DNA of 64,000 bases from Halalkalibacter krulwichiae. GTDB taxonomy: Bacteria; Bacillota; Bacilli; Bacillales; Bacillaceae_D. Below are positions 6,104 through 38,081 of the stretch, piece by piece. Location: positions 2,441,501-2,505,500 of the forward strand of contig NZ_CP020814.1 of NCBI RefSeq assembly GCF_002109385.1. Direction: 5' to 3'. Every line of letters starts with the position of its first letter. Position 1 is the first letter of the stretch. A program made the position numbers and the translations under genes. The notes beneath the pieces are model-generated. The model was not told the origin of the DNA. It made no database searches and was given only the letters and a program-made list of their open reading frames with translations.

Positions 6104-6132
6104 AAGAACCACCCCATATTTATTAATAATAA

Positions 6133-6146: not shown

Positions 6147-6183
6147 ATAAACTCAAAAAAAGATTTAGAAAATTGTAAAAAGT

Positions 6184-6214
6184 AAATGGGTGCTTTTTCT
6201 TTAAGCACCCATTT
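6184..6214 (-). terminator. Terminator of the FtsK/Replic_Relax operon
   Basis: AAATGGGTGCT and AGCACCCATTT form an 11-bp stem followed on the minus strand by a T run, just after the 67-residue gene. Confidence 0.85.
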
Positions 6215-6225
6215 AGCAATTCACT

Positions 6226-13792: not shown

Positions 13793-14100
13793 TAGTTATC
13801 ACCTCCTCCAGTTTTTGAAGTGGTGTAACCTGTGATTGCTCTAATAGCAGATAGATCAGCATCTTTTCTTGGATTCATATATCTACGTGCTTTGTCTAAA
13901 TACTCTCTACCTTCTTCTGACTTCTTTAACTCTTTAACATGGCATTGTTTGATATATGCGAGAAAATGACTGTGAGGCATTTGTAGGATGTATTCATGAG
14001 AGAAGTTGTAGTAAGAGGCTAATAGAGCGAAGTCGCTGAACAATTCATACTCATCATTAAAAGAAGCCGTATCCCCTTTATCTGAAGGAAGATACGGCAC
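13792..14100 (-). CDS. Tail assembly chaperone, T part (made mainly by -1 frameshift)
   Basis: This 102-codon frame lies just after the G-type chaperone and is open upstream in the -1 frame exactly to the slippery site A AAA AAC. The fused product would have 215 residues: 111 from the first frame, then Leu-Lys, then this frame. A weak independent GTG exists, but no ribosome site precedes it. In lambda-like and Gram-positive siphophages the equivalent gpGT fusion recruits tail protein to the tape measure. The position just before the tape measure fits. Confidence 0.82.
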   Translation of the reverse strand: MPYLPSDKGDTASFNDEYELFSDFALLASYYNFSHEYILQMPHSHFLAYIKQCHVKELKKSEEGREYLDKARRYMNPRKDADLSAIRAITGYTTSKTGGGDN

Positions 14101-14102
14101 TT

Positions 14103-14438
14103 TTAGTTTTTTGATTCAGCATTTTCAACTACTTTAGATTGATAAATTTGTACAATACGTCTCATTTGAGAAACACTAACATTTTTCTCAACAAATTCCT
14201 CTGTTACGTCTTTAGACTCATCCTGACTTAAAATCAAAGTAACCATTTTTACGAACGATCCAAACTGTGCTTTATTCGTTTTGGCTTTTAAAGCCTTGTC
14301 TTCAAAATCTAAAAGTTGATTTACAAGATGTACACTAGGCTCAGGTGGTATAGTAAATTGATTGTCCTCAGCAAATTTTAAAATAAGTGGTTCTTGTGTT
14401 AGTAATGAAAGATCAATAATATTTGACATAAAATACAC
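14103..14438 (-). CDS. Tail assembly chaperone, G part
   Basis: The 111-residue protein lies between the major tail protein and tape measure genes, the standard place for the gpG-like chaperone. It is mostly helical with a Lys-rich middle (FEDKALKAKTNKAQ). The ribosome site AAGGAG is nine bases upstream. The final codons TCA AAA AAC TAA place a canonical slippery heptamer immediately before the stop. Confidence 0.85.
   Translation of the reverse strand: MYFMSNIIDLSLLTQEPLILKFAEDNQFTIPPEPSVHLVNQLLDFEDKALKAKTNKAQFGSFVKMVTLILSQDESKDVTEEFVEKNVSVSQMRRIVQIYQSKVVENAESKN
14106..14112 (-). promoter_or_regulatory. Programmed -1 ribosomal frameshift site
   Basis: Read on the minus strand the heptamer is A AAA AAC, in phase with TCA AAA AAC TAA of the G frame. 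Slipping back one base enters the open frame of the T part through CTA AAA GTG. Confidence 0.85.
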
Positions 14439-14467
14439 TCCTTATGATTGTTTTTCATAAATAAAAA

Positions 14468-14486
14468 AGAAGGGTTTCCCCTCCTT
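14468..14486 (-). terminator. Terminator after the major tail protein gene
   Basis: A GC-rich stem of AAGGAGGGG with CCCTTCTT and six T follows the stop codon, and may set the level of tail protein above that of the chaperones. Confidence 0.7.
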
Positions 14487-15036
14487 AGATTTCTTCTACA
14501 ATTTTTACAATGTTACCGTCTTTACGGTTTGGATCAGCAAGTAATCTAAACTCAAAAGTAAAGACTGATTCAGACTCAGGATTAAATGTAAATTGAAGTC
14601 CTGATCTATTTTGCGCCTTATACATTTTTAGCTTCAGTTTCTTCCCATCTTGTCGCTTAGTATGTACGAATAGGAGTTGTTTTGCTGGCACGGTAAGTTT
14701 ACCACCAATACCAAGAGTACGCTTTGTTGCATCCTCACTATAGTAAGTGGATGAAATTTCGTTCAATACTTTTAAATCTAGCGTACAAACACCAGCGTTA
14801 AAAAGAACTTCTTCCGAAGTCACAAAACTAGCTATTGTTTGGTTAAGTTTCCCCCCATTTACATCGTACCAGTTTTGAGTATAATTTAACGTTGATTCAC
14901 CAGAACTTTCCCCTATTTTAAGCATATCTGCTTCAATTTCTTCATCTGTACTTTCGTCAATATCAACACTTTCAGGGAGGATAAAAAGCTCTCCCGCTCC
15001 AAAAAGAATTGAATTATTATTTGTATTATCTGACAT
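14485..15036 (-). CDS. Major tail tube protein
   Basis: The 183-residue protein has the size, position and beta-rich pattern of siphophage tail tube proteins (TLGIGGKLTVPAKQLLFVH, FTFEFRLLADPNRKDG near the C-terminus). It follows the head-tail joining genes, precedes the chaperones, and is followed by its own terminator. No Ig-like extension is visible. The assignment rests mainly on synteny and fold pattern. Confidence 0.78.
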   Translation of the reverse strand: MSDNTNNNSILFGAGELFILPESVDIDESTDEEIEADMLKIGESSGESTLNYTQNWYDVNGGKLNQTIASFVTSEEVLFNAGVCTLDLKVLNEISSTYYSEDATKRTLGIGGKLTVPAKQLLFVHTKRQDGKKLKLKMYKAQNRSGLQFTFNPESESVFTFEFRLLADPNRKDGNIVKIVEEI

Positions 15037-15043
15037 TAATTAG

Positions 15044-15487
15044 TCATCCTTTCAGTGTAATTAAGTAATATTGATTTTGTTCAAACACTTTTTCATTTTC
15101 ATGAAACAAAAAAGACCCACCTGTCATAAGCTGGGAGTTTAAAATTATTTGATTGTTTACTATGTTAGATGGACGATCATTAACTTTCTTTTTGAAATCA
15201 AGTAGCTCAATTAATCGACTAGTAATATCGTTTAATTGTTGCTCATCGGCTGTCACAAGCGTAACTTGTACTCTATGCTCATTTGCTACTTCCCTTTGAG
15301 ATAAAGGTACAACGTTATAGACAATGTAAGGATAATCAATAAAACTTCCTTTTTCATTTAGTTGCTCCTTACTAAATGCTTGAGGTCGACCGAAGAAGAT
15401 CTTTAACTTATACTCAAAAGGATAATGATCAAGCAACTCACTAAGTTTTTCATCAGAAGTTAGATACTGAAAGAAGGTAATATTCAT
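15044..15487 (-). CDS. Tail terminator / completion protein
   Basis: The 147-residue protein carries FIDYPYIVYNVVPL and EHRVQVTLVTADEQQLNDI segments, the pattern of SPP1 gp17-like tail completion proteins that cap the tail at the head joint. Its start overlaps the upstream gene by four bases. It directly precedes the tail tube gene, as expected. Confidence 0.72.
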   Translation of the reverse strand: MNITFFQYLTSDEKLSELLDHYPFEYKLKIFFGRPQAFSKEQLNEKGSFIDYPYIVYNVVPLSQREVANEHRVQVTLVTADEQQLNDITSRLIELLDFKKKVNDRPSNIVNNQIILNSQLMTGGSFLFHENEKVFEQNQYYLITLKG

Positions 15488-15819
15488 TTGGGACTCATCC
15501 CCTTAGCAATAATCTGTTGCATATTGCTTTGATTCTGCTCAATTGCATCACGTATGTATGGTTGTCCAGTAATATTACGAACAACACTGCCCTCATGTAC
15601 AACTTCAGCATATTCAACATTATTAGTACCAACTTCAACATCTGAAGAGTCTTCATTATGTTTAACTTCTGAACCTGTGCTTCTCCTAAGATGACCAGTC
15701 TCACCAACTGGTGCTCTCATCTTACTTTCACGTTCCATCAACATACCAATCTCATTAGCTACCTTTTCACGTTTGCTTCTTACGTCTTTAATAGCTTGCT
15801 GAAATTTTAAGTTTTTCAT
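15484..15819 (-). CDS. HK97 gp10-like head-tail joining protein
   Basis: The 111-residue protein has a helical N-terminus with many Lys and Glu and the typical gp10 signature APVGETGHLRRST, followed by VEVGTNNVEYAEVVHEG and a C-terminal helix. It overlaps the preceding gene by one base and the next by four, so the joining cluster is tightly coupled. Confidence 0.82.
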   Translation of the reverse strand: MKNLKFQQAIKDVRSKREKVANEIGMLMERESKMRAPVGETGHLRRSTGSEVKHNEDSSDVEVGTNNVEYAEVVHEGSVVRNITGQPYIRDAIEQNQSNMQQIIAKGMSPK

Positions 15820-16139
15820 TAGTTAGCCCCCTTTCTAATAAGGACTTCATAATGCTTATCATATTTCATAATTTCAGTAACCTTATAAGACTCCTCTAGA
15901 TACTCAATATCTGAAAGAATTTTCAAATCCTCATTTGGTTTACAGAATACACGATTTGTAACTTCAACAAACACACCATAAGTACGTTCTGCTAAAGTAT
16001 TAGAATATGGTTCAACTTCACCCTTAAATGGAGACTTAATTGTTTCAGGATCACCATAGATTGGACGACCAAAAGGATCATAATCAATTACTTGACCATT
16101 TTCTTCAGTAACGATATACAAAGTTTTAGTAAGTCTCAT
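15819..16139 (-). CDS. Head closure protein (SPP1 gp16-like)
   Basis: The 106-residue protein is beta-rich (TLYIVTEENGQVIDYDPFGR, TYGVFVEVTNRVFC) and lies between the connector and the gp10-like gene, the position of the stopper that seals the filled head. It overlaps its neighbours by one and four bases. Assigned by order and size. Confidence 0.68.
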   Translation of the reverse strand: MRLTKTLYIVTEENGQVIDYDPFGRPIYGDPETIKSPFKGEVEPYSNTLAERTYGVFVEVTNRVFCKPNEDLKILSDIEYLEESYKVTEIMKYDKHYEVLIRKGAN

Positions 16140-16441
16140 ACAAATCTCATCCTTCTATTTTCATTTAATCTACGAATAATATCAGGAGGAAGATCATCTC
16201 TATAAGATTCACTTAAACTACCCTTACCTTCTGAAACAATATTTTCAACACCTTTATTTCGATAGTTGAAAACTGCAATATCCTCAGCTAATTCCTCAAG
16301 GGAAGAATTTAGCTCTTTTACATTACAATACGTTAAGACATGATTAGTAGCCCTTGTTAGATAGATCAGAAGAACATTATCTTCACTATTATCATTATCT
16401 TTTAAGTCTAACAGGGCTTTTATATTAGCTATAGAAGGCAT
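16136..16441 (-). CDS. Head-tail connector (gp6/gp15-like adaptor)
   Basis: The 101-residue helical protein begins MPSIANIKALLDLKDNDN and has the pattern of adaptor proteins that bind the portal ring (LLIYLTRATNHVLTYCNV, DIAVFNYRNKG). GGGG precedes the start. It follows the small capsid-associated gene and leads the joining cluster. Confidence 0.78.
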   Translation of the reverse strand: MPSIANIKALLDLKDNDNSEDNVLLIYLTRATNHVLTYCNVKELNSSLEELAEDIAVFNYRNKGVENIVSEGKGSLSESYRDDLPPDIIRRLNENRRMRFV

Positions 16442-16452
16442 AATTTAACCCC

Positions 16453-16617
16453 CTATTCCTTAGGCTTCGTTTTAGTAACTCGCTTAGTAGTTGCTGCTTT
16501 GCTTGTAGACTTAACTTCCCTTACCTCTTCATAATTAGCATCTTTTTTACAACGCTTAATATGATCAGGATCTACTACTTCCCAAACGAGACCAGTTAGT
16601 TTATTTTTAAATTTCAA
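16453..16617 (-). CDS. Small basic protein between capsid and connector genes (54 aa)
   Basis: The frame starts at TTG with AAGGAGTGA eight bases upstream. The N-terminal part (MKFKNKLTGLVWEVVDPDH) looks like a small beta domain, and the C-terminus is a Lys/Thr-rich tail (SKAATTKRVTKTKPKE). Short genes of this type commonly sit between the capsid and connector genes of Bacillus siphophages. Function unknown; the basic tail could contact DNA or capsid. Confidence 0.7.
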   Translation of the reverse strand: MKFKNKLTGLVWEVVDPDHIKRCKKDANYEEVREVKSTSKAATTKRVTKTKPKE

Positions 16618-16642
16618 TTACATCACTCCTTACTATTAAAAA

Positions 16643-16667
16643 AGAGATAGAGCAAAGCCCTATCCCT
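16643..16667 (-). terminator. Terminator after the major capsid gene
   Basis: AGGGATAGGGC pairs with GCTCTATCTCT around TTT and is followed by a T run on the minus strand. Confidence 0.8.
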
Positions 16668-16678
16668 CATGTATTTGA

Positions 16679-17497
16679 TTATTGATTAGTAATAGTAGCC
16701 GTAAGAACCGCTAAAGCTTCTGGACGAATTACTTCAGCACCGTATACAAATAAACCACGAACACCATCAGCAAAGCTATTTTCTAAGCGCATTGCCTCTG
16801 TCTTCTCAATCTGCTTACCATAACCAATAGCTTGCTTATTTAGTGCCATAATTTTTAACTTACCGTTAGTATTTGGCAATTCTTCAGATACAACAACTTG
16901 CATGCCGTTTATCTTCTGCCCTTCAACTACACCATTTTCAAGAACAGTAGGATTCTTTGTGAAACGATCATCTTTGGATAATAGTCCCAACACTTCTGAT
17001 TCAATAATGACAAAGCGATTAGCTTTAGGTACTTTCTTTTTTGAAAGCTTAGTACCAAGATCAACAATCTTGTCATAAACATTAAGTTTATCTAGTGCGA
17101 CCGGTTCAGCATCACTTCCAATAACATTATCTTCATGAGCACCAGTGTATAGACCGAGAACAAATGTATCAATTTTTTCTTTTGCATTATCCGCTTCTTG
17201 TTCTGTATAAGCGCTTAACACATCCCCTTTTGCTTGAACCGCATCCACGTCATCACAAGTAATAGCAAAGTATTTCTTTTGATCCATGTGTAGTTCAACA
17301 GGAGTTGTACTTACTGAATTCCAATCAATAGAACCTTCATAATCTTTAAGTTCCGAAGCTCCAATACGGTTAAATATAATTTTATTACCTTCAATTCGTA
17401 CTGGTGGAGTAGTAATAACCTCCGCTACTGAAGCCTTTGTATAATTTGCTAATAAACGAGAGTCCCATACTGCTGGAATAAATGATTGTACTGACAT
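16679..17497 (-). CDS. Major capsid protein
   Basis: The 272-residue protein begins MSVQSFIPAVWDSRLLANY and shows the features of P22/HK97-fold coat proteins: EGNKIIFNRIGASELKDYEG, DCDDVDAVQ-like middle, TFVLGLYTGAHED, and NRFVIIESEVLGLL. It lies between scaffold and connector genes and has its own terminator, consistent with high expression. Confidence 0.88.
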   Translation of the reverse strand: MSVQSFIPAVWDSRLLANYTKASVAEVITTPPVRIEGNKIIFNRIGASELKDYEGSIDWNSVSTTPVELHMDQKKYFAITCDDVDAVQAKGDVLSAYTEQEADNAKEKIDTFVLGLYTGAHEDNVIGSDAEPVALDKLNVYDKIVDLGTKLSKKKVPKANRFVIIESEVLGLLSKDDRFTKNPTVLENGVVEGQKINGMQVVVSEELPNTNGKLKIMALNKQAIGYGKQIEKTEAMRLENSFADGVRGLFVYGAEVIRPEALAVLTATITNQ

Positions 17498-17567
17498 ATT
17501 AATATCACCTTTACCTTTTCTAATTTATGTATAGTGCTTATTTAACGTCTAGCCCGAAAGACAATTA

Positions 17568-18209
17568 TTATTGTGCTAATGCTTCATCAACTAATGATTG
17601 ATCAAGCTTGCTAATTTCTTCTACTGACATTGATTGAAGTTGTTCACGAGTAATTGTTGTTGGTTTATCTCCATCTTTTGGAGTAAAACCATTAGACTTT
17701 AATTTCTCATTCACAACTGTTTGAAGATGACTAGACCAAACATCTTTTAAACTTGCCAAGTTAGCCTCTGTTGCCTCTTTACTCTTTGTACCTTTTTCAT
17801 CATCTTCACTTTCTATTTTGATAAAATAGTCTATAAGATCCGTAGGCAATGAATTGTCTGAAGCAAATTTAAAAGCTGAATTACGAAGAGTCTCACGTAA
17901 TTTATCCTGTTCTAACTTTTGAAATTTTCGTTCTAATTCTTCATATCTCAAATCTTTATCATCTTTATTACTAGTTCGCTTAGTTAACTCATCAGTAATA
18001 ATTTTTTCAAGGTTGTTGCTTTTCCATGATTCCAATCCACGACTAAAGTAACTATCTAAACGTGGTTGTAAAAGCTTCTTCCCATCCTCTGTATCAAGAA
18101 AAGTTGTTACTCCCTCAGGTGTTACTTGAGATAACCCCTCAAGGTATGCTTTCACTTCTTCTTGATCTTTGTTTTCTTCTAAAAACTTCTTAATTTCTTC
18201 TAATGTCAT
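17568..18209 (-). CDS. Capsid scaffolding protein (DUF4355-like)
   Basis: The start is placed at ATG 18209, with AGGAGG seven bases upstream, giving 213 residues. The protein is highly charged and helical with a coiled coil near residues 75-115 (RYEELERKFQKLEQDKLRE). A C-terminal acidic helix could hold the capsid-binding part. It lies directly upstream of the capsid gene, the usual scaffold position. Confidence 0.8.
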   Translation of the reverse strand: MTLEEIKKFLEENKDQEEVKAYLEGLSQVTPEGVTTFLDTEDGKKLLQPRLDSYFSRGLESWKSNNLEKIITDELTKRTSNKDDKDLRYEELERKFQKLEQDKLRETLRNSAFKFASDNSLPTDLIDYFIKIESEDDEKGTKSKEATEANLASLKDVWSSHLQTVVNEKLKSNGFTPKDGDKPTTITREQLQSMSVEEISKLDQSLVDEALAQ

Positions 18210-18309
18210 AATTAGCCTCCTACCCTTTATGTCCGAAGCCATAAAGTGCAACATTTTTGTTTTTCACGCTGTTCTTTTACGTCTGCAACATGAAAAAAGA
18301 CATAATAAA

Positions 18310-18334
18310 AAAGCTAACCAAATTGATTAGCTTT
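18310..18334 (-). terminator. Terminator overlapping the end of the head morphogenesis gene
   Basis: AAAGCTAA and TTAGCTTT form an 8-bp stem followed by T on the minus strand. The first arm lies in the last codons of the gene. Confidence 0.75.
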
Positions 18335-19180
18335 TGCCCATTCCTCATACGTTTGATAAGGAATGTTTTCCCTTGTTTCATTGTCTCTTCTGATATTTGT
18401 ACCACCTTCAATAACTGGGACAATATCGCATTTACAATTTGGATGATACGGAACAACAGGACGAATTGAATCATTAAGATCAAAGATTTGCCCATCTAAG
18501 TCGGCACAATCAGCACATGTATTAGCTTCAAGAGTAGCCAACCATTGAACCTGTTGAATTCCATTCTCTTCATAGACCTTTTCTCTTGATTCAGTGATTA
18601 TATGCGCTGTTTCAGTACGTACTAACCTTTGAGACTGATAAGCCTTGCTATCAAACTGCTCATCAAACACTTTTGCAATCTTTTCTAGCTTATGACCTTC
18701 TCTAATTCCCCTTTCAAGGTTAGTAGATAAAGCCTCTTTTAATGCTTGCTGATTTCTCCAAATACGCTCGGAGAAGTGCGCACCTGACCAATCTTGATTA
18801 ATAAAACTATCAAGAACAGATTGATTTTCTCGTTCAAAATTAATACCAACACCTATATTTTGCTCTAGAGTGTAAGCACTTCTATAATACGATTCAGTGA
18901 ACGCTGCACCTAGAATAGCTGTAATAGTAACAACTTCAAAAGTTGAAATAGTATTTAATTCTTGATCAAGTTGCTCTTCAAATTGAGACATAACACCAGT
19001 AAGATAGACTTGGTTATAGTCAATCACTCCATCCTCTGCATAGTCCATATATAATGAAGCAAGTAGTTGTTTGACCTTCTCTTTACTACCTTTATACTGA
19101 TTTAAGACAACATCATAATCATTATCAGATTGCTCCAATAACTCTTCTAGGATTTTTAATAAATCATCATTCAGCGCCAT
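18314..19180 (-). CDS. Minor head / head morphogenesis protein (SPP1 gp7, Mu F type)
   Basis: The 288-residue protein ends in the signature of this family: RTETAHIITESREKVYEENG, CADCADLDGQIF with two paired Cys, and PYHPNCKCDIVPV. The N-terminal half is helical. It overlaps the portal gene by 14 bp, typical of portal plus gp7 pairs. Family members enter the procapsid through the portal and influence DNA ejection. Confidence 0.9.
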   Translation of the reverse strand: MALNDDLLKILEELLEQSDNDYDVVLNQYKGSKEKVKQLLASLYMDYAEDGVIDYNQVYLTGVMSQFEEQLDQELNTISTFEVVTITAILGAAFTESYYRSAYTLEQNIGVGINFERENQSVLDSFINQDWSGAHFSERIWRNQQALKEALSTNLERGIREGHKLEKIAKVFDEQFDSKAYQSQRLVRTETAHIITESREKVYEENGIQQVQWLATLEANTCADCADLDGQIFDLNDSIRPVVPYHPNCKCDIVPVIEGGTNIRRDNETRENIPYQTYEEWAKANQFG

Positions 19181-20489
19181 TGTTACTACCTAATATTTGT
19201 TGGTTACGATTTCTTAAATCTGCATCTAATCCAGTAGAATCAAGTCCATTTTTGAGTTTCTTAATTTCAAGCGAAGGTTCTTGGATTTTTGGATGCCAAC
19301 TAAGGAGCGTTTCTAGGGGGACTATATTTACTAATTTAGCAATTTGATCTGTGATTGCTGCTTCATCTGCAGGAATATCCCTCGAAAACTTGAACGAAAT
19401 GTCTGAAGGCTCATAATCCTTACCTTGTTTATTTAACATAGTAACAATCATGCGAATACGCTTTCTAAGTGCTTTCTCCATCTTACGTTCTTTCATACTA
19501 CTTTTAGTTTCGAGTCCGAAAAGGTGAAATTTAAGTGCCTGACCTGACAAATTACTGGAGAATTTAGAAGATGTTAAACGAGGAGTATCTGATTGCTCAT
19601 GAATTAAATGATCAAGTGTTTCGTATAAATTATTTTGAAACTCTGCATTAGCATCTTTCGTTAAAAACTTGGCTTGCCCAACGTCATCTAACAAAAGAAC
19701 TCCATCTTGTTTCATTTTCTCAATATCTTCTTTTTCTGTGGCTTTATACCCTGCTAAGATTAAATACGCATTTACAAAACTTTCATTGCTATTAATCGCA
19801 TCTGAAAGTAAAGTGTTTATTGCATCTACTTGAGTAATAATTTCCTCAAAATCGCCTTGTTCTTCTTCATTATTTAGGTAAATCGTAATTGGCACTTCAC
19901 CAAAATAATGCTCAAGATCATTTTCATTATTATCTGAAACGTATGTATTCCCACCATCACTAGAAATAAAGTGATATATTCCATTTTCATCATATACTTC
20001 TACCTTTATTTCCTTTGAATTATCATCTTTTTTCAATTCCCAATAACGTAAACCAAAGAGAATATTATTTTTACTATCTCTTTCAATGTACATTTCAAGT
20101 GGACTGTAATGATTAAATCGTATGTTTCCATTCCTATCAATAAAGTAAAGCTCATAGCATTTACCGTATATCGAGAAAGTCTTAATGATTTCAGCGTTTG
20201 TATCTTCTTCATTATTAAGATAATTAATCATCTTTATGTCATTCAAGAAATTTTGATTTCCTGATTGTGATACATAAGCTAATGGCATAGAAGCAAAATA
20301 GCCTAACATGGTATTGATAATCTTCTTTGGATAAAGTGTAACTACCTTATTGTTCGGCTTATGTTTGTCCGGCAATTTCCGTGACAAGATTTTATGCTTG
20401 CCTATATAATAATCAAATAACTTTTGATACCTGGGTAATTCAAGCTTATGCTTCTTAATAGCTTCTTTAATTTGATTGCTTGTAACCAA
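19167..20489 (-). CDS. Phage portal protein (SPP1 gp6 type)
   Basis: The 440-residue protein forms the ring through which DNA is packaged. It has the usual N-terminal wing (IINTMLGYFASMPLAYVS), the EGDFEEIITQVDAINTLLSD region with the family NDxxD-like pattern, and the LSGQALKFHLFGLETKSS segment that marks SPP1-like portals. It lies between terminase and head genes and overlaps the next gene. Confidence 0.92.
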   Translation of the reverse strand: MVTSNQIKEAIKKHKLELPRYQKLFDYYIGKHKILSRKLPDKHKPNNKVVTLYPKKIINTMLGYFASMPLAYVSQSGNQNFLNDIKMINYLNNEEDTNAEIIKTFSIYGKCYELYFIDRNGNIRFNHYSPLEMYIERDSKNNILFGLRYWELKKDDNSKEIKVEVYDENGIYHFISSDGGNTYVSDNNENDLEHYFGEVPITIYLNNEEEQGDFEEIITQVDAINTLLSDAINSNESFVNAYLILAGYKATEKEDIEKMKQDGVLLLDDVGQAKFLTKDANAEFQNNLYETLDHLIHEQSDTPRLTSSKFSSNLSGQALKFHLFGLETKSSMKERKMEKALRKRIRMIVTMLNKQGKDYEPSDISFKFSRDIPADEAAITDQIAKLVNIVPLETLLSWHPKIQEPSLEIKKLKNGLDSTGLDADLRNRNQQILGSNNGAE

Positions 20490-20500
20490 TGCCTAACCTC

Positions 20501-22105
20501 CTATATTCCTAACATTTTTCTATCTATCGTTTGAATGCGTTTATTCCCTTTTAGCATCTGAACAGCACCAAATAAGCTATCTGGACAATCATCAAATTTG
20601 GATTTAGAAGAATAATCCTTTATTTGAGTGTTGTACGTATGATTATCAGAATTGAAAAGAATGTCACCTGAGTTCACTTCCGGCTGTAATGATTCAATTC
20701 TAGATTCTTTCTTTCCTTTTGAATGCACACCAATAATAGGAAGGTACAAACTTTCCTTCCATAGCGCTTCTTCAAATTTTTGTTTCATGTATGACTGTGC
20801 TTGAATCGTTTCAAATCCAATACGATCAACAGGAAACGTATGTATTTTCTTCGCTGCTATTTTGAATAGTTCATCAGGTAAGACTTTGTGCATAGAACCA
20901 TCAAGAATATATTTTTGTTTCGTTTTCGTATGTTCTCCAAGAATGGTTATTGCGCTAAAGTCATTCCTTTTACCAGCTTTAATGGCTGGATCTATATACA
21001 TAACAATATCTAATTCATTTAACTCAGGTAGAGACTTCCAATATTGAATCTTTTGGAATATGTATTCACCTGCAGATTTAGGTTGATTCATTAACTCTTT
21101 CCAAAATGATATCTCACCATCATCTATTTTCTTTTTCATTAAGTCATAGTAAGTCCAACGTTCATTCCATAAAACTTGAGTACCTTTTAACATTTCCTCT
21201 TTATGCTCATTGAAATAAGAAAAAGCTGTTTCTTCCCTATCCTCATCTTCCCTATTTGTATAGAGTGATTCCCAATGGCTCCATAAATCTAACGCATCAC
21301 TAAAAGTAATGACCGCTTGCTTTCTAACCTTTTTCCAACCAGTAGTATCAGGATCAAGAATGTCTGAAATTAAATCATCTTCTGATAAAGTTGTCCCTAC
21401 TAGGAGATAGTTAGAATAAGAATCACCTAAATTAAGAACCGATTCTTTGAATAAGTTTTTAACCTTTTCATTCTTAGATTCAGATTCAACCATTCCATCA
21501 GTAACCATATCATCACAAAGACAAAGCTGTGGTCTAAGACCTTTCCATTTGATCCCCCTGAGAGTTCCAAGGATACCTCTAGCCATGATACATGAATCAT
21601 TCTTTAGCCATATCTCTTGCGCTGACCACTTTTCACTAGACTTTAATTCTCCAAAGTCTTCAATAATTGCTTCATTAGAAGTTACCTCAGCCTTAATATC
21701 ATTCATTAATGCTACTGCTAAATCATCTGAAGCAGAAAGTAATAAAATGAATCGAATACGCTTGAAAAGGATTAAATGAAGAGGTGTAAGGAAGGAAACT
21801 ATAGTGGATTTTCCGTGATTACGTGGGACTGCGTAGATTAAACGTTGTCCTTCTTTATGGAGAAGATCATCTAACTCTAATAATAGTTCACGTTGAAACT
21901 CACCAAATTCTCTCCAGAACACTTTAGGAAAGTAAGCTAATGCAAAGTACTCAGCATCTATTTGTGCGAGCTTTTTCCGTAAACCATTCTGACCAATGAG
22001 ATTATTTTTGTGTGAAATGAGGAGTTGTTCTATTTCAGAAGGAGAGAAATGTTTTTGAAGATATGTGAGAAGAAGTTGTTTTTCATTTGTGCTTAATGTG
22101 CTCAA
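20501..22105 (-). CDS. terL: Terminase large subunit
   Basis: The start is TTG 22105 because GGAGGTGA lies upstream; a longer frame has no ribosome site. The 534-residue protein has Walker A PRNHGKST at residues 94-101, Walker B LCLCDD at 194-199 and a C-terminal RNase H-like nuclease domain whose first Asp is in MYIDPAIKAGKRNDF. It packages DNA into proheads with the portal and small terminase. Uniquely here a serine recombinase gene separates it from terS. Confidence 0.93.
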   Translation of the reverse strand: MSTLSTNEKQLLLTYLQKHFSPSEIEQLLISHKNNLIGQNGLRKKLAQIDAEYFALAYFPKVFWREFGEFQRELLLELDDLLHKEGQRLIYAVPRNHGKSTIVSFLTPLHLILFKRIRFILLLSASDDLAVALMNDIKAEVTSNEAIIEDFGELKSSEKWSAQEIWLKNDSCIMARGILGTLRGIKWKGLRPQLCLCDDMVTDGMVESESKNEKVKNLFKESVLNLGDSYSNYLLVGTTLSEDDLISDILDPDTTGWKKVRKQAVITFSDALDLWSHWESLYTNREDEDREETAFSYFNEHKEEMLKGTQVLWNERWTYYDLMKKKIDDGEISFWKELMNQPKSAGEYIFQKIQYWKSLPELNELDIVMYIDPAIKAGKRNDFSAITILGEHTKTKQKYILDGSMHKVLPDELFKIAAKKIHTFPVDRIGFETIQAQSYMKQKFEEALWKESLYLPIIGVHSKGKKESRIESLQPEVNSGDILFNSDNHTYNTQIKDYSSKSKFDDCPDSLFGAVQMLKGNKRIQTIDRKMLGI

Positions 22106-22230
22106 GCGTTCACCTCCAATTTTTAAGGGTAGAAAATACCACAAATTTTCTTAATGTGACTGTTGCAGGGATATTTGACTCAAGAATAGAATACCCCTAC
22201 CTCTATTAATTTGAACAAAAAGAAAAGCCA

Positions 22231-22791
22231 TCACTTATCTGTGACCGCCTTCTTCTTGGCTCTAATTAATGTACTTTTACTAATTCCTGTTCTTTCTTCT
22301 ACTTGCTTATAAGAGTTAGTTTCTAATAGCTCTAGAGCGTGCTCTATTTGCTTCTTACTATACTTGTTTGGTCTTCCTTCTCTGAAGTCCTCACGCTGCT
22401 TAGCAATAGCCTTACCTTCTTGTGTACGTTCCACTATCATATCACGCTCAAACTCAGCAAATGAACTCATAATGTTAAAGATAAGTCTACCTGTTGGTGT
22501 ATCTTCCACTAGCCCCATATTAAGCACATGAACCTTTACACCCTTTTCAAATAACCTTTTAACTGTTTGAATAGCATCTACTGTGGAACGTGCAAAGCGG
22601 TCTAATTTAGTTACAACAAGAGTATCACCTTTACTTAATTTAGAAAGCAACTCCTGAAATTGTGGTCTATCTGATTTAGTACCAGTAAACTTTTCATCAT
22701 AGATAATTTCACAACCTTCATTCTTTAAAGAATTGATCTGCGATTCTAAATCTTGACCAACTGTTGATACTCTTGCGTAACCATATTTCAT
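22231..22791 (-). CDS. Serine recombinase (resolvase/invertase family)
   Basis: The 186-residue protein has the catalytic serine in YARVSTVGQ, the conserved arginines in KLDRFARS and [14 protein letters not shown], and a C-terminal HTH ([21 protein letters not shown]). That is the size of Tn3-type resolvases and Hin-type invertases. It sits between terS and terL with no transposase or obvious invertible segment nearby. Repeated TGACAC boxes upstream could be its res site. Phage-plasmids use such enzymes to resolve dimers. Confidence 0.93.
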
Positions 22792-22921: not shown

Positions 22922-23329
22922 TTACTCTTCTTCCTTCTTATCCTTCAACATATCCATAAGCTCATTGTAATCTTCGTCATTGCTTTTCTTATCTTCAATG
23001 ATTAAAGTCTTACTGTTAAGCCCAGCCTTCTCCAAGATTGACTGAATAGCTTGTAAACGTGCATAGACTGTTTTGTTATCCTTAATCTCACCATTTGCCA
23101 TTTTAACAAGTTCTTTAGACAGTTTCTTACTTGATACCTTAAATGTATTAAGAGCATCATGTAATGATTCAGTTGCTAAAGAATCTATGTATTCTTGTGC
23201 CTCCGGTTTCTTCAAAAGATTATAAATTGATTTACGATCAGCATAGCCACACTCCTCAGCAATCTGTTGTACAGTGTGCATACCTTCATAATACATTCTG
23301 ATAGCTTTTAATTGATTATCTTTTAACAT
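22922..23329 (-). CDS. terS: Terminase small subunit
   Basis: The 135-residue protein starts with a DNA-binding HTH (LKAIRMYYEGMHTVQQIAEE, DRKSIYNLLKKPEAQEY) and continues with an oligomerisation helix bundle and an acidic tail, the layout of small terminases. It recognises the pac or cos site, not identified here. It is the first gene of the packaging module and follows an intergenic promoter region shared with the divergent HEPN gene. Confidence 0.85.
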   Translation of the reverse strand: MLKDNQLKAIRMYYEGMHTVQQIAEECGYADRKSIYNLLKKPEAQEYIDSLATESLHDALNTFKVSSKKLSKELVKMANGEIKDNKTVYARLQAIQSILEKAGLNSKTLIIEDKKSNDEDYNELMDMLKDKKEEE

Positions 23330-25217: not shown

Positions 25218-25256
25218 TTATAACAGCTCCTTAGTTTGATTCATACTATTATTAAG

Positions 25257-25330
25257 TGGACTTTACAGGATTCGAACCTGTGACCTATCGCTTATGAGGC
25301 GACTGCTCTGACCAACTGAGCTAAAAGTCC
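25257..25330 (-). tRNA. tRNA-Ile2 (anticodon CAU, probable lysidine-modified reader of AUA)
   Basis: The 74-nt cloverleaf is complete: acceptor GGACTTT with AAAGTCC, D arm GCTC/GAGC with AGTTGGTCA loop, anticodon loop CTCATAA, T arm ACAGG/CCTGT with TTCGAAT loop, discriminator A, and no encoded CCA. The CAU anticodon alone could be Met. The start GGACTTTTAGCTCAGTTGG and the CTCATAA loop resemble bacterial tRNA-Ile2, not elongator tRNA-Met. TilS of the host would convert C34 to lysidine. A phage copy would help translation of AUA codons, frequent in these AT-rich genes. Confidence 0.88.
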
Positions 25331-26551: not shown

Positions 26552-26808
26552 CTATCCTTTCGGCTCAAATTTAAATTTATAAAACTAAGAGGATTTTGTT
26601 TCGAGGAACACACGAACAGAGCTAGATACAAATGACCTAGCTCACTGTCTCTCATGTGCTATAAAAAATAAAAATAACATTATTTGGAGGAATAAATAAT
26701 GAAATCGTAGCAGATTCTCTCTATTTATTCGTTTGCTCATCGTTTTATTTAATGTCGGACGATAGCAGGGGCGCACTGTAATAAAACCAGCCGATACCGA
26801 CAAGAAGC
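26552..26808. other. Intergenic region, 257 bp, with hairpins but no convincing gene
   Basis: GAGCTAG and CTAGCTC (about 26616-26641) form a 7-bp inverted repeat, and GTCGG/CCGAC arms lie near 26755-26803. On the + strand GGAGG precedes a four-codon frame at 26700 that stops at once. A small RNA is possible, but nothing identifies one. Confidence 0.4.
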
Positions 26809-27027
26809 CTAATTAACTTTCACACGTTTCATTACAAATTGATCCGCTTGCTCAATAATGTCTTTAATTTTATTTTCATTGCTAATAGATAGCCTTGTTT
26901 TATTCCGAAAAAACTGTGATACTGCTGCTTGTGAAATCCCTAATGAATCAGCAATTGTTTTATTTTTTATCTCCTTCTTCATCGCTAGGAAACGTAATTC
27001 CTCTATCTCTTCAATCGAAAGTCTCAA
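26809..27027 (-). CDS. HTH regulator (72 aa)
   Basis: The start is TTG 27027 with AAAGGAGGG upstream. Residues 18-45 form a Cro-type helix-turn-helix (KNKTIADSLGISQAAVSQFF). The protein has nothing else apart from a basic C-terminus. Two TTAARCGTAAA boxes 33 bp apart lie just upstream and are its likely operators. It stands between the RNA polymerase-like gene and the short early genes. Confidence 0.82.
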   Translation of the reverse strand: MRLSIEEIEELRFLAMKKEIKNKTIADSLGISQAAVSQFFRNKTRLSISNENKIKDIIEQADQFVMKRVKVN

Positions 27028-27085: not shown

Positions 27086-27267
27086 AAAGAGAACAGGAGG
27101 AGACGTTACTAAACCTGTTCTTCTAAAGACTTAGTAAGCTGGCATACTTACTAAAGTTATAATCGTTACATGGAAATGGGGGAAACCAACTTAAAGCTTT
27201 ACATCTGAAATTATATATAGTACAGTATAATTACGAGGTAAGTTTAATGTTATTTAATTAACAAAAA

Positions 27268-27311
27268 AAGAAGAGTAGTACTACACATCGTATAGACTAT
27301 CATACCACTCT
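27268..27311 (-). terminator. Second terminator after the RNA polymerase-like gene
   Basis: AGAGTGGTA and TACTACTCT form a 9-bp stem with one mismatch and a long loop, followed by seven T on the minus strand. Confidence 0.6.
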
Positions 27312-27340
27312 TTCCATATAGGGAACTTTTTTCAATCAAA

Positions 27341-27383
27341 AAAACCTCAAAAATCTAGCTTAAACACTAGGTTTTTTGAGGTT
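27341..27383 (-). terminator. First terminator after the RNA polymerase-like gene
   Basis: A long A/T-rich stem (AACCTCAAAAA...CTAG with CTAGGTTTTTTGAGGTT, read in sections) closes on a short loop just after the stop codon. Confidence 0.75.
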
Positions 27384-27390
27384 CCATTTT

Positions 27391-30096
27391 TTAAAGGTGT
27401 GAATTTTTCGGCTTGAAGGCATTCAAGAATACCTCTTTTTGTGTTGAATGCAACACATTTAGCAATCTTATAGCATCTTCACTGTTATCTTTAACCATTC
27501 GCATTAAGATGGCACACATCGTATCTTCCTTTACATGGAGTTTTTCTACATGAAAATTGTAATATTTAACAATATTTTTTATACGATTGTTCCGCTCATC
27601 CTCATCATTAATACTACTATACACACTTTTTATATCGCTACTGTATTTCTTGACATTATCTCTAATCTTTTTTTGCTGGTGGCGATTTGCTTGTTTCACT
27701 TTATGTATCACTAACAAACTTCTAAAATCAATATCTTCTCGCTTAGTTGCATATTTAAGATAACTTAATTCTTTGACAAGATAATCCATCGGGCAATCGT
27801 AATAGCTAATCCTATTCCCTATTGTGTTACTTTCGCTTATGAATTGCCAAAACTTAGGCTTCCTTTCAGCTAATTCGGGTAACTCTTCAATATGTTCGAT
27901 CTCATCTTGTATGTTTATTTTATATAACTTTTTACTTAAATCGATAGCCACTCCTGACAAAACCGTTAAAACACCCGTCTTCTGTAGCAGTCTTTCCAAC
28001 TTTCTACCTTTAAGACCTTTTGATTTCAAATGCCAATATGTAGACAAACAAAATTGACCCAAATTAACAACATCCCCTATTTTTTTTGAGCTTTTAGCTA
28101 ATATATTGTCAATCTCACTCATGCTCAGTTTATTTAGTTTGTATTCCTTCTTTTCACTTTGTAACTTGTTAATACAAACTCGATATTCCTTTTTACACGC
28201 TTGAGCAATGATTTTTAACTTTTCGCTATCAATTAAAAGCACCGTATCAGAGTCATAATCACTACCGGATAACGTATCCTGCAAAGGAAATTCCCATGCA
28301 TTTACGGCAACAATATTTTTACTGAAATTAAAATACTCTTCAATCTCTTTATTATATGTATTCTTAGCTAATAGAACGTTACTAGGGCTAGTATTAGGGT
28401 TTCTGAAGCCAACTAGATCAACTCCAAAGTCAAACATTGTTGTAAATATTTGATTACCTCGAAGGGATAACTCAGGATTTTTAACATTAAACTTACCAAT
28501 GCTATGCAATAACATTTCATAAGGATTTCCGATCATAACGCAATAGTCTGCTTTAGGAATACGCACTTTCCCACTTTTGACTTTCTTTCCATAGTCATAA
28601 ATTTCTTTAGAGCGGAACTCCCTAAAAATTTCTGTATGTACAATATCGTTATTTCGTCTATATAAATCAATTAACATTTGATGACTATTCATTTCATTAG
28701 TGTTCTTTTCAAGATGCTCAATAAAATGCTCATCACTTTCTTTAAGGTTCATTATGTATTCTTTTTCATAGCCTGCTAATTGAGCAACATCATCTTTATT
28801 TAACGGTAAGCAATTTACCATTTGATAAGAAAGGGATTGAAGGATATTTCCCTTTTCATCTGTTCCATGTTTTGATTTCTTTTCATGCTTACAAACCCCA
28901 AAAATAATACCTTCTGAGCTTACTAAGCCCTTCCAATGAGAAAACATTGCATTATTTAATCTTCTCATAACTTCTTTGTCCTTTAGGTTTTCACCTTCTT
29001 CAGCAAAAACATTACTGAATTTAAGACATTTCAGACTAGAAGGAGTTGTTATCATATGCACGTCTTTAGCAAGGATCTCATTACCAAACATGTCTGTAAG
29101 CTTCCATTCATTATATGGAGTATCATCTGGACATTTATCCTCAAGAAACTTTTGTATCTTAGTATTGAACGCTGCAGATTTAAAGAAATGGTGACGTAAC
29201 AACTTCATTGAACCAGCGTGATCAAAATACTGTTCATCAAGTAATGATTGTCCATCGAATAGACTGTTGCTAACCTTAACATTTTCCTTGAAGCTGTCTA
29301 GTAACCCTGTCTTCTTATCGGTTCTTACAACATTGCAAATCTCATCAAATTCACTATTGATATCATCTACAACAAGAATGTTTTCAGGGTTTATCTTGAT
29401 CGTCCCTTCTATGGATGAACCAACAAGAGACTCATAAGAAAGCAAACTAGCTAAATCAATTGGTTGATTATCCTGAAAAGGTAGGTACATCCTAGACCAA
29501 TTTATCATTTCATTATAAAGTTCTTCACGAATTGCTAATACTTGACCAGTTCTACTTTTAGAACTAGATCGTTTGTACACCTTATAAGTGATTACCTCAA
29601 TTTTATTAGTCTTTATATTTTTAAACTTCAATGTGAATCCATTCTCATAAAGATGCTCCCTTAACTCATCATTCTTAAGTTCTTTCCACTTCTCTTTGTA
29701 GGTTTGAGGATCTTCCTTCTCTTCAGAAATATGTTTAATAAATCCCTTTAGTTTCTCCTTGTATCCTTCCAACTTTTCTTTCTTTTCTTCTGTTTCAGCT
29801 TCAGCAATCTTTTTATCTAGCTTTCTCATTTTACTTTTACAAGCTTTAATAATCTGGTCGCCCGATTTAACTTTCTGTTTGAATTTTACATTGATTATGT
29901 CATTGCTAATTTCTTTATCACTCGTTTTAACAGTCATCGTTGATAAACCTTCTTGCTTCAATTTAATCAACTCAAGACTATGAGGTATCATACCAACGTA
30001 ATTAAGATCAATTTCTTTATCTCTAATCATATTGCCGTAAATGTCGTTCGCTTCAAGTGAAAGTATGTAAACTTGCTTGTTGTTGTTTTCTGCCAT
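27391..30096 (-). CDS. YonO-like single-chain RNA polymerase (DxDxD protein)
   Basis: The start is ATG 30096 with AGAAGGAG eight bases upstream, not the TTG eight codons earlier; this gives 901 residues, close to SP-beta YonO (about 905). GSDYDSDTVLLID at residues 611-623 is a DxDxD motif with Asp613, 615 and 617, the metal-binding core of the two-barrel RNA polymerases shared by the cellular beta' subunit, YonO and eukaryotic RdRPs. Upstream conserved-type blocks are GNPYEMLLHSIG (about 520) and GFRNPNTSPSNVLLAKN (about 555). A charged coiled coil lies near residues 85-150. YonO transcribes late genes of SP-beta as a DNA-dependent polymerase; by analogy this could serve the element. It lies beside the predicted origin and has two terminators. 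Confidence 0.75.
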   Translation of the reverse strand: MAENNNKQVYILSLEANDIYGNMIRDKEIDLNYVGMIPHSLELIKLKQEGLSTMTVKTSDKEISNDIINVKFKQKVKSGDQIIKACKSKMRKLDKKIAEAETEEKKEKLEGYKEKLKGFIKHISEEKEDPQTYKEKWKELKNDELREHLYENGFTLKFKNIKTNKIEVITYKVYKRSSSKSRTGQVLAIREELYNEMINWSRMYLPFQDNQPIDLASLLSYESLVGSSIEGTIKINPENILVVDDINSEFDEICNVVRTDKKTGLLDSFKENVKVSNSLFDGQSLLDEQYFDHAGSMKLLRHHFFKSAAFNTKIQKFLEDKCPDDTPYNEWKLTDMFGNEILAKDVHMITTPSSLKCLKFSNVFAEEGENLKDKEVMRRLNNAMFSHWKGLVSSEGIIFGVCKHEKKSKHGTDEKGNILQSLSYQMVNCLPLNKDDVAQLAGYEKEYIMNLKESDEHFIEHLEKNTNEMNSHQMLIDLYRRNNDIVHTEIFREFRSKEIYDYGKKVKSGKVRIPKADYCVMIGNPYEMLLHSIGKFNVKNPELSLRGNQIFTTMFDFGVDLVGFRNPNTSPSNVLLAKNTYNKEIEEYFNFSKNIVAVNAWEFPLQDTLSGSDYDSDTVLLIDSEKLKIIAQACKKEYRVCINKLQSEKKEYKLNKLSMSEIDNILAKSSKKIGDVVNLGQFCLSTYWHLKSKGLKGRKLERLLQKTGVLTVLSGVAIDLSKKLYKINIQDEIEHIEELPELAERKPKFWQFISESNTIGNRISYYDCPMDYLVKELSYLKYATKREDIDFRSLLVIHKVKQANRHQQKKIRDNVKKYSSDIKSVYSSINDEDERNNRIKNIVKYYNFHVEKLHVKEDTMCAILMRMVKDNSEDAIRLLNVLHSTQKEVFLNAFKPKNSHL

Positions 30097-30307: not shown

Positions 30308-30381
30308 GTAAGATGCATTTCAAAATATGTAAGATGCAAAAGTTAAACATGTAAGATGCATTTATTAATTCGTAAGATGCA
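30308..30381 (+). repeat. Iterons: four GTAAGATGCA repeats, probable replication origin
   Basis: GTAAGATGCA starts at 30308, 30329, 30351 and 30372, with spacings of 21, 22 and 21 bp, two helical turns. A partial inverted copy (CATCTTA) follows inside the end of the neighbouring rep-like gene. Direct repeats at this spacing beside a winged-helix gene are typical of iteron replicons. Confidence 0.8.
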
Positions 30382-30394
30382 TAAGTTGAACATC

Positions 30395-31450
30395 TTATGC
30401 CCCAAGGGATTCAAGCTTCCATTTATCAGCTTTTTCAGCAATCTTGTCATCATGTACGAAATACTTATTATTCCATCGAATAAATGTCTCAATCTCTTTG
30501 CCTTTATCAGTAACATCGATACCATTTGACTCTAAGTAATTTCTTTGTACTTTCATCAAGTTCACTTTATCTAGTATTTTTATATATTTAATAATCGTTG
30601 TTCGGCTATTTCCTGTGTCTTCTGCAATTAATTCCTCAGATGGATATGCATAATGATCCCAAAGAAACTTTGTTCTATCTATGTAACTCTCTAAGTAATA
30701 CATGATTCTGACACCTGTATAGCCAATCTTATCTAACACGTATCTATCAATTAATCTATGTGTAAGTTGAGTAAATTTAATAGGATTTTCCTTTTTTCTA
30801 GGTATGTATTCAGGATTAATTCTTACTGGTAATGGGTGAGTCTTGGGTAAATTCTTGATCTCATTACGAATAAGACCTCTCTTATGTAAGCTATTCCAGC
30901 ATTTTTTAAATGTCCTATTATCTTTGAATTTTAAGAAGTGCATTAACTGCTCGTATTCTTTAATAACATACTCCTCTCGCTGTCCATGCCTTTGGTATAA
31001 TTGCACCAATTTAACATACAGGACAAATTCTTTGTCGTTAATCGTCTTATCTCTAACAACCTCAGAAGCTATCTGAATCTTAAATGCATTAGCCTTCTGA
31101 CCATCAGATTTCTTAGGTGGAGTAACAGGTGTGATATCTTTAGGTGGATTTTCTCTAAGATATTCCTCTTCAGATTCTAGCCATACAGTATATTGTTCAG
31201 CTAACATACGTTGATATTCAGGATCATTGTGTAATTGTTCTTGTTGCTCTATCCAGTGTGCTTCCGCCTCTTCTAACTCACGTATCTCAACTTCCCATAA
31301 TCTATATAATTCTTTATCTAAAATGCTGTTATGTATCATTCGGTAATAGCCTTCATGCTCATACTCAAGTAAGTATTCTGTCTCTTGCCAATCAATACGA
31401 TATTTCATGCCTTCTTTTTTGTTGAATTTCATTGTTTGAGATTCCGTCAA
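30395..31450 (-). CDS. Winged-helix replication initiator-like protein
   Basis: The 351-residue protein starts at TTG with GGAGGTAA upstream. An acidic helical N-terminal part (residues 30-110) leads to two winged-helix-like units: KEFVLYVKLVQLYQRHG to FKKCWNSLHKRGLIRNE, and LIAEDTGNSRTTIIKYIKILDKVNLM. Dual winged helices are the layout of plasmid Rep proteins that bind iterons. Iterons begin 14 bp after its stop codon. It could equally be a phage replication-loader of the DnaD type. No helicase or polymerase accompanies it. Confidence 0.65.
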   Translation of the reverse strand: MTESQTMKFNKKEGMKYRIDWQETEYLLEYEHEGYYRMIHNSILDKELYRLWEVEIRELEEAEAHWIEQQEQLHNDPEYQRMLAEQYTVWLESEEEYLRENPPKDITPVTPPKKSDGQKANAFKIQIASEVVRDKTINDKEFVLYVKLVQLYQRHGQREEYVIKEYEQLMHFLKFKDNRTFKKCWNSLHKRGLIRNEIKNLPKTHPLPVRINPEYIPRKKENPIKFTQLTHRLIDRYVLDKIGYTGVRIMYYLESYIDRTKFLWDHYAYPSEELIAEDTGNSRTTIIKYIKILDKVNLMKVQRNYLESNGIDVTDKGKEIETFIRWNNKYFVHDDKIAEKADKWKLESLGA

Positions 31451-35361: not shown

Positions 35362-35411
35362 TGGTCACTTCTTTTTCATTTTAATATTTTACTGGTCACC
35401 CAAATGGTCAC
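35362..35411 (+). promoter_or_regulatory. TGGTCAC repeats beside the right junction (candidate arm sites)
   Basis: TGGTCAC occurs at 35362-35368, 35393-35399 and 35405-35411, directly beside the repeat. The first is part of the 15-bp sequence inverted at 4437-4451. Confidence 0.5.
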
Positions 35412-35637
35412 CTTTCTACTTTTATCTATTATCTACCGTTTCCGGATACAAGTCATGGTTCATCATGCGGTATTCAGCCATTTTTTCATACTTTGTTCCA
35501 GGCTTGCCATAATTTGTATAAGGATCGATGCTAATACCACCACGCGGGGTAAACTTTCCCCATACTTCAATATATCGCGGATCCATTAACTCAATTAAAT
35601 CATTCATAATAATATTCATACAATCTTCGTGGAAATC
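35411..35637. repeat. Right copy (attR side) of the 227-bp perfect direct repeat
   Basis: Identical to 2989-3215. It contains the stop codon and last 71 codons of the functional queF. Confidence 0.97.
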
Positions 35638-35919
35638 TCCGTGGTTACGAAAACTGAATAAATATAGCTTTAACGACTTGCTTTCAACCATTTTGATATC
35701 AGGAATATAACTTATATAAATCGTTGCAAAATCCGGTTGATTTGTCTTCGGACATAAGGATGTAAATTCAGGACAATTAAACTTTACAAAGTAATCGCGA
35801 TTTGGATGGTTGTTTTCAAATACTTCTAATACTGATGGATTATATGAGAAGTCATAATTTGTCCCTTGATTTCCTAGTAGTGTTACACCTTGTAAATCTT
35901 CATCTTTTCTACCGCTCAT
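35422..35919 (-). CDS. queF: NADPH-dependent 7-cyano-7-deazaguanine (preQ0) reductase
   Basis: The start is ATG 35919, with AGGAGGTG upstream, giving 165 residues as in B. subtilis QueF. The enzyme reduces the nitrile of preQ0 to preQ1 for queuosine. Cys56 and Asp63 of the catalytic site and the family motif [21 protein letters not shown] are present. The C-terminal 71 codons lie in the 227-bp repeat and were brought by the integrated element, so the protein is restored. It is the last gene of the queCDEF operon. Confidence 0.96.
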
Positions 35920-35936
35920 AAGTGGCACCTCCTATT

Positions 35937-37731: not shown

Positions 37732-37924
37732 GTCTCATTTCTCCTTTTTAGTTCGTTCTGAACTGATTCTTGAAGAAAAAGCATTCGATCACTCCTAATG
37801 GGTATATTCATCCTTCTTCAACATATTATTCTTATAAAGGAGAATACTAAATGCAGGAAGGATAAACATTGTCTTTCTCTTTGGAACGACAAGAAAACCG
37901 TACTCAGCACGTACAGTTAGCACC

Positions 37925-37958
37925 TTAGTTTTTTTATAGAGGGAGTTCGCGAACCTCT
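37925..37958 (-). promoter_or_regulatory. preQ1-I riboswitch of queCDEF
   Basis: Read leftward the aptamer is AGAGGTTCGCGAACTCCCTC, then TATAAAAAAACTAA. This fits the class-I preQ1 consensus: the AGAGGTTC stem, a C-rich loop, and the A-rich tail with CTAA. It lies 194 bp from the queC start. The rest of 37732-38081 holds the expression platform and the divergent promoter region, with no gene. Confidence 0.92.
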
Positions 37959-38081
37959 TTTCTTATTTCCATATAGTATCATAGCATAAGCTTAACTAAA
38001 CCGCTATTCTTTTCACTTGCTTATAATATTGATAAAATATAATTGGTAAATCATCTACATAATAGAAATGAGGAATGTTTC

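Follow-up and report, generated by a model that had tools for sequence, protein, structure and literature searches.

A compact prophage of Halalkalibacter krulwichiae carries a gene for a large single-chain protein reminiscent of YonO, the RNA polymerase of phage SPbeta, and the locus raises the question of what this protein is, which genes it would transcribe and from which site. The window, meaning the whole 64,000-nucleotide stretch analysed here, contains the element in full. A first-pass annotation had described it as 32 kb long, and its borders are now fixed by a perfect 227-bp direct repeat enclosing a 32.4-kb prophage. The right copy of the repeat overlaps the 3' end of a gene that is probably queF in a que operon, because a preQ1 riboswitch lies upstream of it (37919-37963). 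The features of the element are as follows.

2989-3215: left copy of the att repeat, 100% identical to 35411-35637
3255-4421, minus strand: tyrosine integrase (Pfam: Arm-DNA-bind_4, Phage_integrase)
11654-22144, minus strand: structural block (PHROGs)
11654-13792, minus strand: tape measure (PHROG)
14485-15036, minus strand: Ig-domain protein (PHROG)
15044-15487, minus strand: tail terminator-like protein (PHROG)
16679-17497, minus strand: major head protein (PHROG)
17568-18254, minus strand: scaffold (PHROG)
18314-19180, minus strand: minor head protein (PHROG)
19167-20489, minus strand: portal (PHROG)
20501-22144, minus strand: terminase large subunit (PHROG)
22922-23329, minus strand: terminase small subunit, close to the head of the structural block (PHROG)
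26809-27027, minus strand: 72-aa HTH-like protein whose gene recurs behind that of the polymerase (matches in seven loci)
27391-30096, minus strand: YonO-superfamily single-chain RNA polymerase, 901 aa (open reading frame with Shine-Dalgarno sequence, AlphaFold model, fold matches, profile match)
30308-30393: four iteron-like repeats GTAAGATGCA(T/A), about 21 nt apart
30395-31450, minus strand: replication initiator-like protein, 351 aa (HTH_36; weak RepL and DnaD-like matches)
35411-35637: right copy of the att repeat
35422-35928: queF-like gene (PHROG: GTP cyclohydrolase), whose 3' end is the insertion site

The left arm (3255-8305) encodes, besides the integrase, a Replic_Relax/nicking-type replication protein and an FtsK/SpoIIIE-like protein, the latter matched weakly in one of six related virus records. 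A serine recombinase/invertase gene (22231-22791) lies between the small and large terminase genes; copies beside the large terminase gene in two related loci (L064 and L070) are 83-86% identical. A phage-borne tRNA-Met (CAT, 25256-25330) is located between the polymerase and terminase genes. None of the element proteins scanned was recognised as a distal-tail or receptor-binding protein, a holin or an endolysin, and the element may therefore be a mosaic of phage and mobilisable island, or a satellite.

The polymerase gene is an open frame with an ATG start and a GGAG 8 nt upstream; an alternative in-frame TTG would lengthen it to position 30120 (909 aa). The 901-residue frame and its DYDSD motif, both noted at first pass, are real: the motif occupies residues 613-617, and none of the 61 aligned relatives departs from D613, D615 and D617, with the tyrosine and serine nearly as constant. 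Family databases say little, since the best PHROG match (PHROG_8308, 3.5e-164) is a family of 'unknown function', no Pfam family rose above noise, and a sequence search of the PDB matched no chain. Structure is far more informative. The AlphaFold (AF2) model has a pLDDT of 89.6 and contains two double-psi beta-barrels in one chain, the feature by which the YonO-like assignment was to be checked, and all 18 PDB matches at E<=0.001 in Foldseek are QDE-1 or RDR2. These are eukaryotic silencing enzymes, RNA-dependent RNA polymerases of the cell type, with about 11% identity to the window protein. A profile comparison by hhalign with SPbeta YonO and three relatives gave 99.6% (E 9e-25, 601 columns). 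Fold model, profile match and aspartate triad together confirm the protein as a two-barrel single-chain polymerase of the YonO superfamily, and thus as a further member of an already known polymerase class.

Within this class, the protein stands well apart from its namesake. A single pairwise comparison with SPbeta YonO gave 21% identity over 291 aa (E 3e-4), and the window motif DYDSD corresponds to DNDGD in SPbeta. Identities to phage P32 gp64, P74 gp62, crAss-like phi14:2 and P23-45 gp96, which belong to other phage groups, are 8-12%. At least 468 relatives were found at E<=0.001 when 8000 candidates were scored; among the matches listed, their hosts are mostly Bacillaceae, Paenibacillus and Clostridium. 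The element itself, at 32.4 kb against 134 kb for SPbeta, falls outside Spbetavirus, whose members have genomes of about 125-134 kb with SPbeta-like sequence, and tblastn of the polymerase against phages (1e-5) matched three records with no SPbeta-type phage among them. The remark that such polymerases are best known from far larger phages needs qualifying accordingly: a first viral scan yielded 44 related polymerase loci, many on contigs of 27-40 kb, and members of the close branch are thus frequent on smaller records.

Some relatives, among the matches listed, are named 'RNA dependent RNA polymerase' or carry the corresponding Pfam call (PF05183), and the closest solved folds are those of RDR2 and QDE-1, which would fit an enzyme copying RNA. 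However, passages of Forrest et al. (PMC5467207) describe SPbeta YonO as DNA-dependent, with a strong preference for DNA templates, and the window gene lies in a tailed-phage setting with no RNA-replication partner among the genes scanned. We regard RNA-dependent synthesis as very unlikely.

A second proposal concerns the replication genes next door. The four iteron-like repeats (a fifth copy lies at 33623, making five in 64 kb) and the adjoining initiator-like gene make an origin of the element's own plausible, which is as far as the first-pass claim of an origin can be carried. The polymerase gene adjoins both, and a primase-like role at this origin had been suggested. The comparison of relatives speaks against it: replication neighbours, like the other genes around the polymerase, vary between loci, whereas the downstream element described below recurs, and so do packaging genes, which lie on the same strand at a distance of 6-9 kb downstream. 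With flanks of at most 10 kb, 26 of 68 loci have the commonest terminase family there. Moreover, SPbeta YonO is a processive enzyme required for late genes according to passages of the same paper (PMC5467207). A primase-like function is therefore extremely improbable. The 72-aa HTH-like protein is matched downstream of the polymerase in L021, L022, L024, L028, L032, L060 and L064, and the L021 copy shows a weak match to phage regulators. A second well-conserved non-coding stretch, by comparison with L028, lies at 26560-26700 and precedes a 136-aa gene.

If the polymerase serves the late genes, as gene order suggests, a site for it might be sought directly behind its own gene. Lists of strand-biased exact words contained CCATATGATAG and AAGTAGGTGACT, which pointed to an element there; the words TAATACATA, GTGTCTTTTTAT and CTTTTTATTTTG from such lists had an apparent strand bias, proved to be scattered sites, partly coding or terminator-like, and were dropped. 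In many of 52 dereplicated loci, the 300 nt past the polymerase stop contain a CATATGG-like word and, behind it, a compact RNA. De novo motif discovery in these loci returned the single-copy motif nCCATATGGAAGGGG, with a T-tract upstream, at a log-likelihood ratio of 183.9, compared with 48.6-58.0 in block-shuffled sets, of which there were only six. The motif reaches 10 bits in 31 of the 52 loci, starting 26-101 nt past the stop with T at -2 in 94%. At 13 bits or more, there are 23 matches within 175 nt after the gene versus 29 in the remaining DNA (both strands, 1.07 Mb), counted in the same loci on which the matrix was trained. Across 37 motif-aligned sequences, the T-tract occupies -22 to -19 (70-81% T), with G at -24 in 57%. 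A terminator-like hairpin separates stop and motif in 8 of the 31 loci (1.0 in shuffled sequence); where a terminator precedes the motif, the T-tract coincides with its T-run, and the T-tract may in part be no more than such a T-run.

The corresponding features of the window, all on the minus strand, are these.

27338-27381, minus strand: terminator-like hairpin and T-run (CCTCAAAAA...TTTTTGAGG TTTTTTT), directly after the polymerase gene, read from the sequence
27308-27322, minus strand: candidate promoter core CCTATATGGAAAGAG (de novo motif, scan, spacing)
27263-27315, minus strand: short leader RNA (P1/P4-like stem, P5-like top, TTTTTTT end), from folding; it has no P2 arm

The window motif scores 15.3 bits and is the top minus-strand match, with unrelated sites at 14.8 bits (minus) and 14.9 bits (plus); GGTTTT lies upstream of the core at 27341-27346. 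The window hairpin escaped the hairpin scan, which had a loop limit of 8, and stands outside the count of 8 in 31. Transcription would start at the G at 27315, judging from the motif. Folding does not fix the start: when upstream bases are included, pairing in 34 loci begins at positions ranging from 6 nt upstream to 7 nt downstream of the first G (median -1). T7-type promoters are likewise compact and start at a G-run after an A/T stretch; their polymerase is unrelated. Unlike them, the candidate promoter has the extra upstream T-tract and, in the stretches scanned, is essentially limited to a single site next to the polymerase gene.

In 29 of the 52 loci, the motif opens an RNA of about 80 nt whose paired positions covary. 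Its architecture is three-way, with a stem P1, an arm P2 ending in a self-complementary loop, and an arm P4/P5 in which AGUA, invariant in 29 of 29 rows of alignment A2, stands opposite GAA. The AGUA/GAA pair presumably forms an internal loop of the bulged-G (sarcin-ricin) type, which it resembles. A2 leaves out six of the 35 marked loci (the window, L028, L046, L061, L062 and L063). RNAalifold on this MAFFT alignment recovered only P2 and P5 (7 pairs); the complete structure comes from manual drawing on the basis of single sequences, and its pairs were counted afterwards. In the 15-sequence alignment A4, made by MAFFT without structure, 84.3% of cells are paired against 63.5% when shuffled. 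The covariation score is 0.698 against 0.302, with slid versions of the structure at 0.302 or below, a margin that is partly expected because the structure was drawn from the same sequences. A4 drops 14 of the A2 rows as misaligned or carrying a different internal loop (L014, L017, L018, L023, L025, L026, L027, L030, L032, L038, L056, L058, L065 and L070); an 18-row version, A3, was set aside.

Searching 71 sources (1.49 Mb) with a covariance model built from the 15 A4 rows gave 35 matches, every one on the plus strand and after the polymerase. These matches (29 distinct; alignment A5) show double changes in 20 of 20 pairs and a covariation score of 0.731 against 0.294 shuffled, a value that leans toward the structure because A5 was fitted to it. 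A second covariance model, R2, marked 40 of the 71 sources, always at 32-108 nt past the polymerase stop and nowhere else; it had been trained on 35 of these 40, and near-identical copies occur among the sources. Folding of single sequences is weak evidence: the z values of seven elements span -3.3 to +1.0 (+0.3 in L025, +1.0 in L033), and the minimum-energy fold of L070 deviates from the consensus. The shortened leader of the window folds at -15.1 kcal/mol (z -2.7); L028 has a similar one, and R2 scores neither. Six loci (L012, L037, L007, L008, L050 and L009) have the motif with no R2 match, and motif and RNA are therefore separable. Because the two share the GG, constraint on the RNA could account for some of the conservation of the motif.

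None of the 4227 Rfam models matched the new RNA in the 12 of 40 R2-positive sources scanned, at gathering thresholds (L005, L006, L011, L018, L023, L033, L041, L014, L016) or at E<=0.1 (L025, L029, L033, L048). The skipping-rope RNA (RF02924) occurs in the same leader region in L006, L037 and, below gathering, SPbeta; it is a separate element, further downstream than the new RNA. Its copies in L006 (13251-13333) and L037 (13139-13241) lie 0.5-0.6 kb after the polymerase. The SPbeta copy (L074:10720-10829, with a DUF3800-VIII RNA at 9410-9475) follows directly on yonN: the yonN-yonK gap holds a DUF3800-VIII RNA at 47.5 bits and the skipping-rope RNA at 29.6, against a gathering threshold of 36.7. 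A Pistol ribozyme match (38.8 bits, minus strand) was seen in a Paenibacillus locus at L012:127-194.

The P2 loop is the most telling part of the RNA. In A2 columns 35-55, Watson-Crick self-complementary stretches of at least 6 nt are present in 24 of 29 rows (5.3 in shuffled loops) and of at least 8 nt in 15 of 29 (1.2); the maxima over 5000 shuffles were 13 and 7. With G-U pairs counted, 21 of 29 rows reach 8 nt (5.8 shuffled) and all 29 reach 6 nt, a count made without shuffle control. The rows are related, and they are therefore not 29 independent events. The stretches nevertheless comprise 21 distinct sequences, some with a common core, that differ between phages, and five rows keep their self-complementarity by G-U pairing only. 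A sequence that varies while its self-complementarity is kept argues for RNA-RNA pairing and not for a DNA operator bound by a protein. Since a palindrome of such length cannot fold on itself, the leader RNA would form homodimers through P2. That the window RNA has no P2 arm counts against this reading.

Two more viral scans added 47 loci on contigs absent from the first, without dereplication. At 13 bits or more, these loci have 7 motif matches near the gene and 26 elsewhere (1.27 Mb strand-bases). The motif reaches 10 bits in 10 of 17 loci with polymerases of 30-44% identity, as against 2.8% of random windows, and in only 2 of 30 more distant ones (27-32% identity). The element is therefore a feature of the nearer branch that the distant one mostly lacks, and the 28 distant relatives that fall below 10 bits count against the late-promoter and dimer reading. 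R2 found four clear copies (L093, L109, L126 and L122) and one at E 3.5. By eye, their loops are again self-complementary: GUGCAC in L093, GACUAGUC in L109, GGUUAACC in L126 and GGUACC in L122. In L126, the RNA follows the polymerase at a distance of 3.8 kb, with a motif-like word ahead of it. Four records came out of pattern searches for the RNA, namely L043 and the contig of L033 (both known), L206, a chance match inside a coding gene, and L205, which is real and new. There, motif and RNA (6885-6963) precede an HNH/terminase block, and the loop AGCCGGCU is self-complementary by eye. No polymerase gene was found on this 38-kb phage record, which may be a fragment; perhaps the RNA is served in trans, the polymerase was lost, or its gene lies on a missing piece. 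The distance in L126 and the case of L205 mean that the element is not merely the 3' end of the polymerase gene, and that their linkage is not absolute. In 299 genomes of the host class, R2 had no match, a result that says little because A1 matched only five of these genomes (the own genome and four weak ones).

L205 also bears on a different reading, in which host RNA polymerase makes a small RNA acting in trans, for example on the phage polymerase in the manner of 6S RNA or in packaging, and the motif is simply the 5' end of that RNA. The discrete fold, the U-run that follows the stem in both the window RNA and that of L028, and the presence of the RNA on a record with no polymerase gene found are all consistent with it. 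On the other side, a strict consensus scan of the minus strand from 27254 to 27820 gave no sigma-A-like site, the T-tract keeps a constant spacing upstream, and six loci have the motif with no R2 match. A small RNA of this sort is, in our judgement, unlikely.

How far the arrangement extends toward SPbeta itself is a separate matter. The two systems share a single-chain two-barrel enzyme with an aspartate triad, located upstream of a late operon (passages of PMC5467207). In some relatives, HU and exonuclease genes lie downstream as in SPbeta, with single copies 55% identical to yonN and 26% to yonJ. Directly after yonO, SPbeta, phi3T and Perkons have CATAAGGGAG or TATTAAGGGAG followed by a GGGA stem with changed pairs (by eye, GGGAGAC/GTTTCCC, GGGAGA/TCTCCC and GGGAGTA/TATTCCC); in SPbeta this look-alike sits between yonO and yonN, a similarity of layout again judged by eye. 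By eye, a motif-like word can be made out in BUCT082 but not in TR-TP1. The motif and RNA models do not pick out SPbeta: the post-yonO site is not among the top motif scores and has no R2 match, and the motif scores highest at other places of the SPbeta stretch, with 11.9 bits on the opposite strand and 10.4 bits on the strand of yonO. Passages of Forrest et al. (PMC5467207) place a YonO start upstream of yonK together with an unannotated ncRNA. The given start, 2225998, could not be placed on the phage record, and a search of 397 genomes returned no B. subtilis 168 coordinates; that the mapped SPbeta start could not be matched counts against the late-promoter and dimer reading. That YonO-type polymerases at large use a dedicated bipartite promoter and a new class of structured leader RNA, with a drifting self-complementary kissing loop whose dimer acts on the polymerase, and that a divergent version follows immediately on yonO in SPbeta, phi3T and Perkons, is a proposition we hold only tentatively, at somewhat short of even chances.

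For the nearer branch, a likely account is that the polymerase transcribes the late genes from the adjacent promoter and that the leader RNA homodimerises. The enzyme, predicted to be DNA-dependent, would be made alongside early and replication genes and would recognise a single dedicated promoter located directly behind its own gene, with a T-tract, about 17 nt, then TYnCCATATGGAARGGG, and a start predicted at the GG. Transcription would continue through small genes into those for terminase, head and tail, while host-type terminators would insulate the late block before induction. The 5' part of the transcript would be the folded leader, a three-way RNA that may dimerise through P2 in 29 of 52 loci and a shortened P1-P4-P5 hairpin in the window. 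One possible effect of the RNA dimer is that the polymerase that has just made it becomes resistant to termination through the late operon. The minimal dedicated transcription system imagined at first pass has in this way gained a candidate cognate late promoter and a leader RNA beside the gene, with use of that promoter by the enzyme suggested by gene order and motif.

What is new here is the promoter-like motif and the self-pairing RNA. Titles and abstract openings of open-licence papers describe neither a YonO promoter nor such an RNA. According to passages of the 2017 paper (PMC5467207), the YonO promoter, and whether the enzyme recognises it alone, were left open. An essentially single-copy conserved motif beside the gene in 31 of 52 loci makes the promoter question testable with one protein. 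If the proposed account is true, a self-pairing leader RNA tied to a phage polymerase would represent a new kind of phage regulatory RNA.
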